Under the pieces are notes generated by a model that was not told where the DNA came from, searched no databases, and worked only from the letters and a program-made list of their open reading frames with translations. DNA of 64,000 nucleotides from Pelotomaculum thermopropionicum SI (lineage in GTDB: Bacteria; Bacillota; Desulfotomaculia; Desulfotomaculales; Pelotomaculaceae). The translations under genes and the position numbers were made by a program. Position 1 is the first letter of the stretch; each line of letters opens with the position of its first letter. The stretch lies in NCBI GenBank assembly GCA_000010565.1, contig AP009389.1:930001-994000 (forward strand), given 5' to 3'. This document shows positions 27,060-63,932 of this stretch, one piece after another.

Positions 27060-27102
27060 CAAAAGCACGAAGCCGGGTAGCCTGCCCGGTTTCGTGCTTT
27101 AG
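27060..27102 (-). terminator. Terminator of the first hicAB module
   Basis: A long interrupted palindrome: AAAGCACGAA and GCCGGG arms pair with CCCGGT and TTCGTGCTTT. It overlaps the hicB stop codon. Reading on the minus strand, a T-run follows shortly after. Confidence 0.7.
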
Positions 27103-27506
27103 TGGTTTTCGCGGATGTGAAGCTTTTCCTTAATTGCCGTCTGGAGTAACTGGGAGAAATTTACTTTTTCCTTCTCTGCTAAATCGTTAAGCCATTTAGG
27201 CAGAGTGACCGTTTTTTTCACTGCTTTTTTAGCCATTCTGTCCCGGATCAATGGCATCCTAGCTTCGACGATGGCGACGAACCCTTTTTCAGGGACATCA
27301 ACTCTTTCGGGCGGGGTTGGAGAAGGGATTTCATCTTCATCTTCTTCCATGCCGTACAAGTGGAGTTCCAGCGCTTCCCTGGCCATCTGCAGCGCTTCTT
27401 CTAAGGTATTTCCCTCCGTAATGCAACCGGGTAAATCTGGAAAAGTGACGCAGTAACCTTTTATTTCGCCGACTTCGAAAATGGCCGGGAAAATGTATTT
27501 GTCCAT
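27099..27506 (-). CDS. hicB: HicB-family antitoxin (module 1)
   Basis: 135 residues. The N-terminal half is a degraded RNase-H-like HicB fold (YIFPAIFEVGEIKGYCVTFP, then DLPGCITEGNTLEEALQMAR and EALELHLYGMEEDE). The C-terminal half is a ribbon-helix-helix-like DNA-binding segment (KKTVTLPKWLNDLAEKEKVN). It would neutralise the adjacent HicA and repress the operon. It starts 6 bases after hicA ends, on the same transcript. A close paralogue lies at 62.7-63.1 kb. Confidence 0.9.
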   Translation of the reverse strand: MDKYIFPAIFEVGEIKGYCVTFPDLPGCITEGNTLEEALQMAREALELHLYGMEEDEDEIPSPTPPERVDVPEKGFVAIVEARMPLIRDRMAKKAVKKTVTLPKWLNDLAEKEKVNFSQLLQTAIKEKLHIRENH

Positions 27507-27512
27507 GCATAC

Positions 27513-27722
27513 TCACTCCTTCATTAAAATGCCGGCCTGTTTAAAGATGCTCCGCACGGTTTTCGGGTCAAGGTCTTTCCGCGGGTGGGGTACGGTGACC
27601 TTACCAGATTTAACCGGATGTGTCAGTTGAGCATGCGAACCTTCCTGGTTTTTTATTGTCCACCCGTTTTTTTTGAGGATTCGCAGAATTTCTGTGGAGG
27701 AATAGGTTTTCACCGTTTTCAC
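27513..27722 (-). CDS. hicA: HicA-family mRNA interferase toxin (module 1)
   Basis: 69 residues with the double-stranded-RNA-binding-like HicA fold: TYSSTEILRILKKNGWTIKN, catalytic-His motif EGSHAQLTHP and VPHPRKDLDPKTVRSIFKQA. HicA toxins cleave mRNA when freed from HicB. Toxin-first order is typical. It is expressed from a near-consensus promoter that contains a palindrome. Confidence 0.9.
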   Translation of the reverse strand: MKTVKTYSSTEILRILKKNGWTIKNQEGSHAQLTHPVKSGKVTVPHPRKDLDPKTVRSIFKQAGILMKE

Positions 27723-27729
27723 CGGTTTT

Positions 27730-27759
27730 ATTATAAGACGTGTTATTCACACGTGTCAA
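27730..27759 (-). promoter_or_regulatory. hicAB-1 promoter with palindromic operator
   Basis: On the minus strand TTGACA (27759-27754) and TATAAT (27735-27730) are 18 bases apart. The spacer region contains ACACGT/ACGTGT half-sites (27736-27756) arranged as an inverted repeat, the likely HicB operator. A similar arrangement is found at the second hicAB module. Confidence 0.75.
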
Positions 27760-28043: not shown

Positions 28044-28119
28044 TGGTGGACCTAAGGGGATTCGAACCCCTGACCTCCTGAATGCGAACCAGGCGCTCTC
28101 CCGGCTGAGCTATAGGCCC
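28044..28119 (-). tRNA. tRNA-Ala(CGC)
   Basis: Minus-strand cloverleaf GGGCCTATAGCTCAG..., anticodon loop TTCGCAT (anticodon CGC, codon GCG), T-loop GGTTCGAATCC, and encoded CCA at the 3' end (28044-28046). Confidence 0.95.
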
Positions 28120-62731: not shown

Positions 62732-63145
62732 CTACGTCTGTTTTTCGCTGACCCCCAGATATTTTTTAAGGGCATTTTGCAACAGGTGAGAAAAGTTTAC
62801 GTTATGTTCCCGGGCCAGGTCGTCAAGCCATTTAGGTATGGTCAGCGTCTTCTTAACGGCCCGATGCTCCATTTCATCCCGGAAGGGCGGCATCCACACT
62901 TCAACGAGAACGACAACCTGGTTGGGCTCCACCTTTATTCTGCTTGCAGGGCTGGGCTCGGGAATGGGAAAGCCATCTTCTTCCAAGCCGTAGAGGTGAA
63001 GGGCTAGCGCTTCTTTAGCCATGCGCAGCGCTTCTTCGTCATTGTCACCGCAGGTGTAGCATCCGGGTAAGTCGGGAAATTCAACCGAAATACCGTCTTC
63101 TGCGTAATCAAAGATGGCAGGGTAGATATATCTGTCTTTAGTCAT
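62732..63145 (-). CDS. hicB: HicB-family antitoxin (module 2)
   Basis: 137 residues from ATG 63145 (AAAGGAGG upstream). RNase-H-like N-terminal part (YIYPAIFDYAEDGISVEFPD, LPGCYTCGDNDEEALRMAKE) and a ribbon-helix-helix-like C-terminus (VKKTLTIPKWLDDLAREHNV). Strongly similar in pattern to the module at 27 kb (shared LPGC, EALELHLYG/EALALHLYG and KWLNDLA/KWLDDLA), so the two are paralogues. Confidence 0.9.
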   Translation of the reverse strand: MTKDRYIYPAIFDYAEDGISVEFPDLPGCYTCGDNDEEALRMAKEALALHLYGLEEDGFPIPEPSPASRIKVEPNQVVVLVEVWMPPFRDEMEHRAVKKTLTIPKWLDDLAREHNVNFSHLLQNALKKYLGVSEKQT

Positions 63146-63163: not shown

Positions 63164-63364
63164 TTAACCCAAACCTGCTTGCTTCAGTATGTTCTTCACC
63201 GTCTTAACAGGCAGGTTTTTTCTTGGGTGAGGAATAGTAACCAGTCCTGGTTTCGACTGGTGCTTGAATTGGTGGTGGCTGCCACTGACCCTCTCAAGTA
63301 CCCAACCGGCTTCTTGCACCATGCGGATTAGGTCTTTGGATGAATATGTTTTCAATCTCCTCAC
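63164..63364 (-). CDS. hicA: HicA-family mRNA interferase toxin (module 2)
   Basis: 66 residues from GTG 63364. KTYSSKDLIRMVQEAGWVLE, catalytic His in SGSHHQFKHQ and VTIPHPRKNLPVKTVKNILK. It forms an operon with the downstream hicB and is driven by a consensus promoter with a palindromic operator. Confidence 0.9.
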   Translation of the reverse strand: MRRLKTYSSKDLIRMVQEAGWVLERVSGSHHQFKHQSKPGLVTIPHPRKNLPVKTVKNILKQAGLG

Positions 63365-63375
63365 CCCGCAAGTAA

Positions 63376-63404
63376 ATTATAACACGTATAAATATACGTG
63401 TCAA
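63376..63404 (-). promoter_or_regulatory. hicAB-2 consensus promoter with embedded palindrome
   Basis: On the minus strand TTGACA (63404-63399), a 17-base spacer and TATAAT (63381-63376), both perfect. The spacer is filled by an inverted repeat with 9-base arms ACACGTATA/TATACGTGT (63382-63401), the likely HicB operator. Confidence 0.88.
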
Positions 63405-63834: not shown

Positions 63835-63932
63835 TGGCGGGAGTGTGTGGGAATCGAACCCACCACGGACAGGAGCGCTGCCCGACGACTGGTTTTGAAG
63901 ACCAGGAGCACCACCAGGCACCATCCACTCCC
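63835..63932 (-). tRNA. selC: Selenocysteine tRNA (TCA anticodon)
   Basis: 98 bases on the minus strand with CCA encoded. It begins GGGAGTGGATGGTGCCTGG, the anticodon loop CTTCAAA gives anticodon TCA (reads UGA), and a long variable arm (TCGTCGGGCAGCGCTCCTG region) precedes the T-loop GGTTCGATTCC. The acceptor pairs GGGAGTG with CACTCCC. These are the hallmarks of tRNA-Sec. It implies that SelA, SelB and SelD are encoded, probably nearby beyond the window end. Confidence 0.93.

Follow-up and report, generated by a model that had tools for sequence, protein, structure and literature searches.

This locus raises the question of how two paralogous hicAB toxin-antitoxin modules in one window (the whole 64,000-nucleotide stretch of Pelotomaculum thermopropionicum SI DNA that was analysed) are controlled, and whether the antitoxin of one module might also act on the other. 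A first-pass annotation had placed a palindromic operator inside the promoter of each module. It proposed that each HicB represses its own promoter by excluding polymerase and that the two systems may cross-regulate. On re-reading of the sequence its coordinates, promoter elements and repeats proved correct at both modules, and the -35 and -10 elements that it had called near-consensus are in fact perfect, 12-of-12 matches to the sigma-70 consensus (TTGACA/TATAAT) in both. The features are as follows, all on the minus strand.

27730..27759, minus strand: module 1 promoter, -35 TTGACA at 27754-27759, -10 TATAAT at 27730-27735, 18-bp spacer CGTGTGAATAACACGTCT
27749..27756, minus strand: module 1 box L, ACACGTGT, with ACA common to box and -35
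27736..27743, minus strand: module 1 box R, ACACGTCT, adjoining the -10
27513..27722, minus strand: module 1 hicA, putative toxin gene, GTG start at 27722, alternative GTG at 27713; PF07927, E=2.8e-22
27099..27506, minus strand: module 1 hicB, antitoxin gene; PF15919, E=2.3e-17; C-terminal ribbon-helix-helix (RHH) domain
27198..27218, minus strand: HicB-1 codons 97-103, KKTVTLP, predicted DNA-reading ribbon, position from the reading frame
63376..63404, minus strand: module 2 promoter, -35 TTGACA at 63399-63404, -10 TATAAT at 63376-63381, 17-bp spacer CGTATATTTATACGTGT
63394..63401, minus strand: module 2 box L, ACACGTAT, with ACA common to box and -35
63382..63389, minus strand: module 2 box R, ATACGTGT, adjoining the -10
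63164..63364, minus strand: module 2 hicA, putative toxin gene; PF07927, E=8.6e-22
62732..63145, minus strand: module 2 hicB, antitoxin gene; PF15919, E=9.7e-17; C-terminal RHH domain
62834..62854, minus strand: HicB-2 codons 98-104, KKTLTIP, predicted DNA-reading ribbon, position from the reading frame

Within the window only these two hicAB promoters matched the consensus at 12 of 12 positions with spacers of 16-18 bp. Read on the minus strand, module 1 is laid out as TTG-ACACGTGT-gaata-ACACGTCT-TATAAT and module 2 as TTG-ACACGTAT-attt-ATACGTGT-TATAAT, that is, two 8-bp boxes of consensus ANACGTNT with centres 13 bp apart in module 1 and 12 bp apart in module 2. The perfect 9-base inverted repeat that had been reported for module 2 is present at 63382-63401 with a 2-bp loop. 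Exact arms in module 1 span just 6 bp (ACGTGT-N5-ACACGT, 27738-27754), and in the register of module 2 the module 1 repeat reads ACACGT-N9-ACGTCT with one mismatch. The repeats and their place inside the promoter are real, and a pair of ANACGTNT boxes describes the operator better than the single palindrome originally proposed. Inverted repeats by themselves are unremarkable in this DNA, the weight resting on place and recurrence: perfect 9-bp repeats of this kind with a loop of 0-10 numbered 21 in the window against a Markov mean of 3.85, and those of 6 bp with a loop of 5 numbered 26 against a Markov mean of 19.4.

In both modules hicA precedes hicB, and the PF07927 and PF15919 matches exceed the curated cut-offs; assignment to the HicA family suggests that both HicA proteins are RNase toxins that HicB would neutralise. 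Identity between modules is 56% for HicB and 49% for HicA, and ribbon residues K97, K98, T99 and T101 (module-1 numbering) are identical in HicB-1 and HicB-2. A HicB profile matched the RHH HicB of S. pneumoniae (5yrz) over positions 7-130, covering the ribbon, and matched PDB 9svk, the closest HicB by sequence, with a better E-value. A structure model of HicB-2 built from 29 sequences (mean pLDDT 88.8, pTM 0.66) had as its best full-length fold matches the RHH HicB structures 5yrz, 4p7d and 6g26, at large rmsd (9-16 A), and the HTH-type HicB of E. coli (6hpb) matched over about 75 columns only. In the monomer model residues 91-100 were of low confidence (mean pLDDT 67) and the ribbon had no assigned strand. 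The order hicA-hicB, the C-terminal RHH domain of HicB and the palindromic operator in the promoter are the features of class 4 hicAB, a group with S. pneumoniae HicBA (5yrz), Y. pestis HicAB3 and B. pseudomallei HicAB, which are described as likewise having the toxin gene first, an RHH antitoxin and palindromic operators over promoter elements. The present operator differs from these in being made of two ANACGTNT boxes placed between -35 and -10.

Across the whole 3.03-Mb genome the two-box pattern ACACGTNTN{3,5}ANACGTNT occurred solely at the two hicAB promoters. A reversed control of the same exact pattern had one match on each strand; the number of matches is therefore no enrichment in itself, and it is the place that is informative. 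Allowing one mismatch, a gap of 4 returned module 2 only and a gap of 5 returned module 1 with two weak one-mismatch matches elsewhere, with reversed controls at 13 and 9 per strand. A HicB regulon reaching past hicAB was considered and set aside, those two weak matches being the sole further sites from the exact and one-mismatch searches of this genome. The genome has seven HicA matches, six of them above cut-off, and the strict TTGACACGT...TATAAT pattern was found at only two of the seven loci, both in the window. Inspected by eye, the five others comprise three hicBA loci with a small HicB, one hicAB locus in which HicB is short and has no RHH, and one HicA match below cut-off followed by another RHH-like HicB.

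Recurrence was assessed in relatives. With a two-sequence HicB profile, relatives were found in 119 of the 398 phylum genomes searched and in 56 of 113 genomes of the order, with up to 30 loci listed per genome search, and named loci were taken from a profile search of contigs as the best 80 of 532 relatives. The first set held 114 HicB matches among those listed, 100 of them with hicA upstream. The pooled set held 223 HicB matches in 218 loci, of which 182 had a recognised upstream hicA and satisfied length rules, leaving 155 distinct loci with the rest dropped; ten phage and plasmid loci brought the total to 165. Among 98 hicA upstream regions scored for two boxes at gaps of 0-7 (duplicates omitted, some with a misplaced hicA start retained), 41 scored 12 of 12 and 21 scored 11 of 12. 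These scores were thus attained in 62/98 regions and in 0.5% of dinucleotide shuffles, a score of 12 being reached by no shuffle. A promoter score of at least 8 was found in 160 of the 165 loci, with five lacking one. In these 160, ACACGT began at the ACA of the -35 in 95, ACGT[GA][TC] stood immediately before the -10 in 107, both held in 71, and 44 promoters were 12 of 12. The distance between ACGT centres was 12 bp in 56 loci with a 17-bp spacer and 13 bp in 33 loci with an 18-bp spacer, so that in these main classes the operator stretches with the spacer while each box keeps its promoter element; 11 loci were at 17/13 and a few others ranged from 9 to 17 bp. A strict pattern, TTGACACGTNTN{3,5}ANACGTGTTATAAT, had 11 matches in 10 of the 398 genomes, with none for the reversed control, and, judged by its coordinates, each of the 11 is situated shortly upstream of a listed HicB relative, on the same strand. 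Alignment of relatives had been named in the first-pass annotation as a way to check its claim, and most relatives examined retain the repeats. By eye, a second, upstream pair of similar boxes seemed to be present in five loci, and the upstream pair of Paenibacillus phage Lilo reads ACACGTGT-aaaa-ACATATGT.

Covariation of the two boxes was analysed in the 126 of 155 loci with a box score of at least 10 and a gap of 3-5; clustering at 75% identity left 63 representatives. Positions L7 and R2, which lie outside the promoter hexamers and were not among the letters by which boxes were selected, were complementary in 46 of 63 representatives (mean of shuffles 35.2, p=0.0006). Weaker signals in the same direction came from other dyad pairs: L2-R7 in 41/63 (p=0.036), L8-R1 (p=0.05), and L3-R6 and L6-R3 (p~0.01), the last three pairs including letters that selected the boxes. 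Within a box, matches were above shuffles for L3-L6 (62/63, p=0.0002, selecting letters) and R2-R7 (33/63, p=0.013), and not above shuffles for L2-L7 (p=0.19) or R3-R6 (p=0.14) in the same 63 representatives. One control pair, L7-R7, was nominally above shuffles (4/63 vs 1.9, p=0.04) and the other, L2-R2, was not in these 63. The boxes mirror each other and are each partly palindromic, as would be expected if one symmetric dimer occupied each box.

The letters of the boxes were associated with ribbon residues of the operon's own HicB. Of the 119 loci with K-K-T ribbons, 100 carried two ACGT cores between the promoter elements, with cores of other types absent there. Asn99 was accompanied by a GCGT, ACGC or GCGC core in 10/12 loci, compared with 6/148 for other residues (p=2e-10), and Asn or Ser at 97, in loci without Asn99, by an ACATGT, ATATGT or ACATAT core in 13/21 compared with 1/127 (p=2e-12); the core lists were drawn up after the loci had been viewed, so these p-values are descriptive and not a test. 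Removal of the ten phage and plasmid loci left 10/11 vs 6/139 for Asn99 and 11/19 vs 1/120 for Asn/Ser97, and when each combination of 65% cluster and state was counted once, the p-values were 0.0017 for residue 99 and 4e-5 for residue 97. The ribbon contexts of Asn99 vary (V/T-R/K-K-N, V-K-T-N, I-S-K-N), and a tree of the N-terminal part of HicB requires at least 5 changes at residue 99 and at least 7 at residue 97; this tree is poorly supported, with one independent contrast per residue on well-supported branches. There were exceptions. Of the 21 Asn/Ser97 loci, 8 had no ATG-type core, six of them keeping ACGT; a GCG-type core occurred in the 6/148 loci without Asn99; and 2/12 Asn99 loci had none in the count, one of which, L107, was later found to have one. 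The operator of L110 (N99) was not located. Five K98T loci that form one clade have ACACGTCT/AGACGTGT, one locus showing TCACGTCT; as a single clade they prove little. A purine/pyrimidine-neutral box rule, by which G3/C6 accompanied N99 in 10/10 vs 23/144 and a non-CG centre accompanied N/S97 in 15/22 vs 25/132, with 3 supported contrasts per residue on the tree, put alternating sequences in the wrong register and gave way to the register-free core counts given above.

The sole real test of the core lists is provided by loci obtained after the first reading. These came from 16 later regions, with three possible orphan hicB and three loci of the YpHicB3 branch excluded from counts, and 7 further regions, of which Javan226, truncated by the end of its record, and phiFN37, in which no hicA was recognised, were not read for operators. 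ACGT cores lay between -35 and -10 in 9 of 9 later K97/T99 loci (AP45, phi105, Bacillus carboniphilus, Ilyobacter, Alicyclobacillus, Staphylospora, Lactiplantibacillus, Javan200 and Javan293). Both later N97 loci, Lilo and Likha, had ACATGT, a form of the N97 rule that was read from the first loci and written down only later; these are Paenibacillus phages, as two loci of the first set are Paenibacillus. A GCG-type core was present in 2/4 later N99 loci (Sitara and Javan75) and absent in Cetobacterium and Enterococcus faecium, where the boxes are ATGTGTAT and, on a post hoc reading, G is kept at box position 3. Ten of the later loci, namely the seven K97/T99 loci up to Lactiplantibacillus together with Lilo, Likha and Cetobacterium, also stand in the main residue counts. 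The correspondence was found on chromosomes, on phages (phi105, AP45, Lilo, Likha, Sitara) and on plasmids. It did not extend to YpHicB3-like HicB of Klebsiella, Pantoea and Azotobacter with an Asn aligned by eye, in which the upstream repeats differ; three such plasmid loci have another promoter repeat, e.g. GGTGGGTATAATACCCAC in Klebsiella with a -10-like TATAAT. The residue-base correspondence is thus limited to the present branch. The three hicB excluded as orphans, on Bacillus phage FADO, a B. velezensis plasmid and an Aneurinibacillus plasmid, have no annotated hicA directly upstream and are possibly orphan antitoxins; the B. velezensis gene adjoins a gene of the AimR family.

From the place, conservation and covariation of the site, its restriction to hicAB in the searches made and its association with HicB residues, we infer a mechanism of repression. 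Each hicAB operon would have one consensus sigma-70 promoter whose spacer is filled by the two-box ANACGTNT operator, and each box would take one RHH dimer of HicB, the two dimers, 12 or 13 bp apart, presumably forming one HicB tetramer. Lys97 of the ribbon would read the central CG of the box and Thr99 the flanking A/T, and if these residues do read the box letters then the boxes would be expected to change when the residues change. Since box L shares three bases with the -35 and box R adjoins the -10, bound HicB and RNA polymerase should be mutually exclusive, and hicA-hicB would be repressed by HicB. That RHH HicB dimers bind the boxes, exclude RNA polymerase and repress their own operon appears very probable. 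In the original proposal of self-repression by polymerase exclusion, the autorepression is now strongly supported by comparison (place, covariation, residue-base match), and the exclusion follows by inference from the overlap and contact with -35 and -10.

The simplest alternative is that the dyads are strong promoters plus chance, their common letters being due to TTGACA and TATAAT. The ACA of the half-site does belong to TTGACA, and inverted repeats of such size arise by chance in the window, but CGT and ACG belong to neither hexamer and are found again in relatives, the L7-R2 covariation concerns letters beyond the hexamers, and strict matches are at hicAB in 11/11 cases; we regard this explanation as exceedingly improbable. 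The sites could instead be bound by some other regulator with a similar RHH ribbon, an idea that gains from the similarity of ANACGTNT to the MetJ box. The box letters, however, follow the residues of the HicB of the same operon, phages and plasmids included, which ties HicB itself to the site and makes another regulator very unlikely. A variant of HicB autorepression is that the physiological repressor is the HicA-HicB complex rather than free HicB, with excess HicA relieving repression. In B. pseudomallei and E. coli, HicB is reported to bind DNA less well when HicA is in excess (PMC11594946, PMC10865869), while the sequence is neutral between the complex and free HicB; we entertain this variant tentatively, at somewhat less than an even chance.

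Compatible with autorepression by HicB is the further suggestion of a single cross-regulated unit made up of both modules, in which each HicB would repress both promoters. The identical K97/K98/T99/T101, together with the 56% identity of the HicB proteins, the position of both operators within the letter range of K97/T99 relatives and the absence of a third exact site from the genome all favour it. Against it, box spacing (13 vs 12 bp) and inner letters differ, so that the geometry of a HicB tetramer could discriminate between the operators, and paralogues in the set differ in their reading residues in seven of the 16 genomes with at least two modules, being the same in nine including the present one. 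Shared reading residues, a shared box language and no other exact site make mutual repression plausible and the different spacing calls for caution; judged on sequence, a cross-regulated unit seems only just short of an even prospect. The seven of 16 genomes in which paralogues differ suggest that insulation may be common elsewhere. More generally, there may be a readable DNA code in this branch of RHH HicB, in which Lys97 would determine the CG at the centre of an 8-bp box and Thr99 the A/T on either side of it, a single T99N or K97N substitution retargets HicB to GCGT/ACGC or ATG-type boxes, and paralogues either share a language and co-repress, as in the present genome, or are insulated by a ribbon change, as in those seven genomes; we consider the arguments for and against such a code evenly balanced. 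If it is true, a module resident in the cell could silence or derepress one brought in by a phage.

Several known systems bear on this reading. In a 2024 review (PMC11594946), RHH HicB proteins are described as tetramers with two RHH units that repress their own operon, YpHicB3 as having two repeats of 15 bp, with the one named BS2 overlapping the -10, BpsHicB as having one palindrome over the -10, and the binding sites of StpHicB are called unknown; that review and a second paper give RHH hicAB in general as having the toxin gene first, palindromic operators over promoter elements and autorepression (PMC10865869, PMC11594946). By analogy, the two boxes would fit the two RHH units of a HicB tetramer. 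The HicB of satellite phage Javan200 is 75% identical to a stretch of StpHicB, and its locus has ATACGTGT-t-ACACGTAT between -35 and -10. The met box, AGACGTCT, has an ACGT centre and is read by MetJ K23 and T25. An alignment of HicB-1 with MetJ puts K97 on K23 and T99 on T25, and that of HicB-2 did not line up the ribbons. The association of box letters with residues 97 and 99 fits a MetJ-type reading by Lys and Thr of the ribbon, which may apply to HicB. No exact ANACGTNT was found in the metJ-metB intergenic region. MetJ itself uses 8-bp metboxes that are adjacent, with S-adenosylmethionine as co-repressor (PMC2775130). HicB boxes are instead 12-13 bp apart, most two-core loci having centres at 12 bp (56 loci) or 13 bp (33 loci) and not at the adjacent 8-bp spacing of MetJ. 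The YefM-YoeB operator has two palindromes at 12-bp centre spacing, one over the -10, with core TGTACA (PMC4803016). This arrangement resembles that of the HicB boxes and the core differs. YefM is not known to be an RHH protein.

Palindromic autoregulatory operators and autorepression of RHH hicAB were already known, and the open-access literature that was searched gave no description of the box, of such a site built into the promoter spacer, or of a correspondence between residues and bases. The main gain is a testable recognition code. A likely operator is also supplied for a widespread toxin-antitoxin branch, with a prediction for S. pneumoniae-type HicB, and the question of cross-talk between paralogous modules, or between phage and host modules, comes down to two residues and two box letters.

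Some observations concern the starts and surroundings of the genes. The GTG of module 1 hicA at 27722 lies 7 bases past the -10, which gives a near-absent leader, and by eye the region 27713-27735 contains a repeated GGTGAAAAC and no clear Shine-Dalgarno site; translation of HicA-1 may be weak or from a near-leaderless mRNA. A leaderless hicA mRNA was considered for module 1, as GTG 27722 is about at the expected transcription start, and was set aside because relatives start further in, behind Shine-Dalgarno-like sites (by eye). GGTGAGG-type sites were seen by eye in module 2 and several relatives, and the more likely start of module 2 hicA, judged by eye from relatives, is TTG 63355 behind GGGGTGAGGAG. 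A few hundred bases upstream of each module, on the same strand, is a tRNA gene: tRNA-Ala (cgc) at 28044-28119 for module 1 and a selenocysteine tRNA (tca) at 63835-63932 for module 2.
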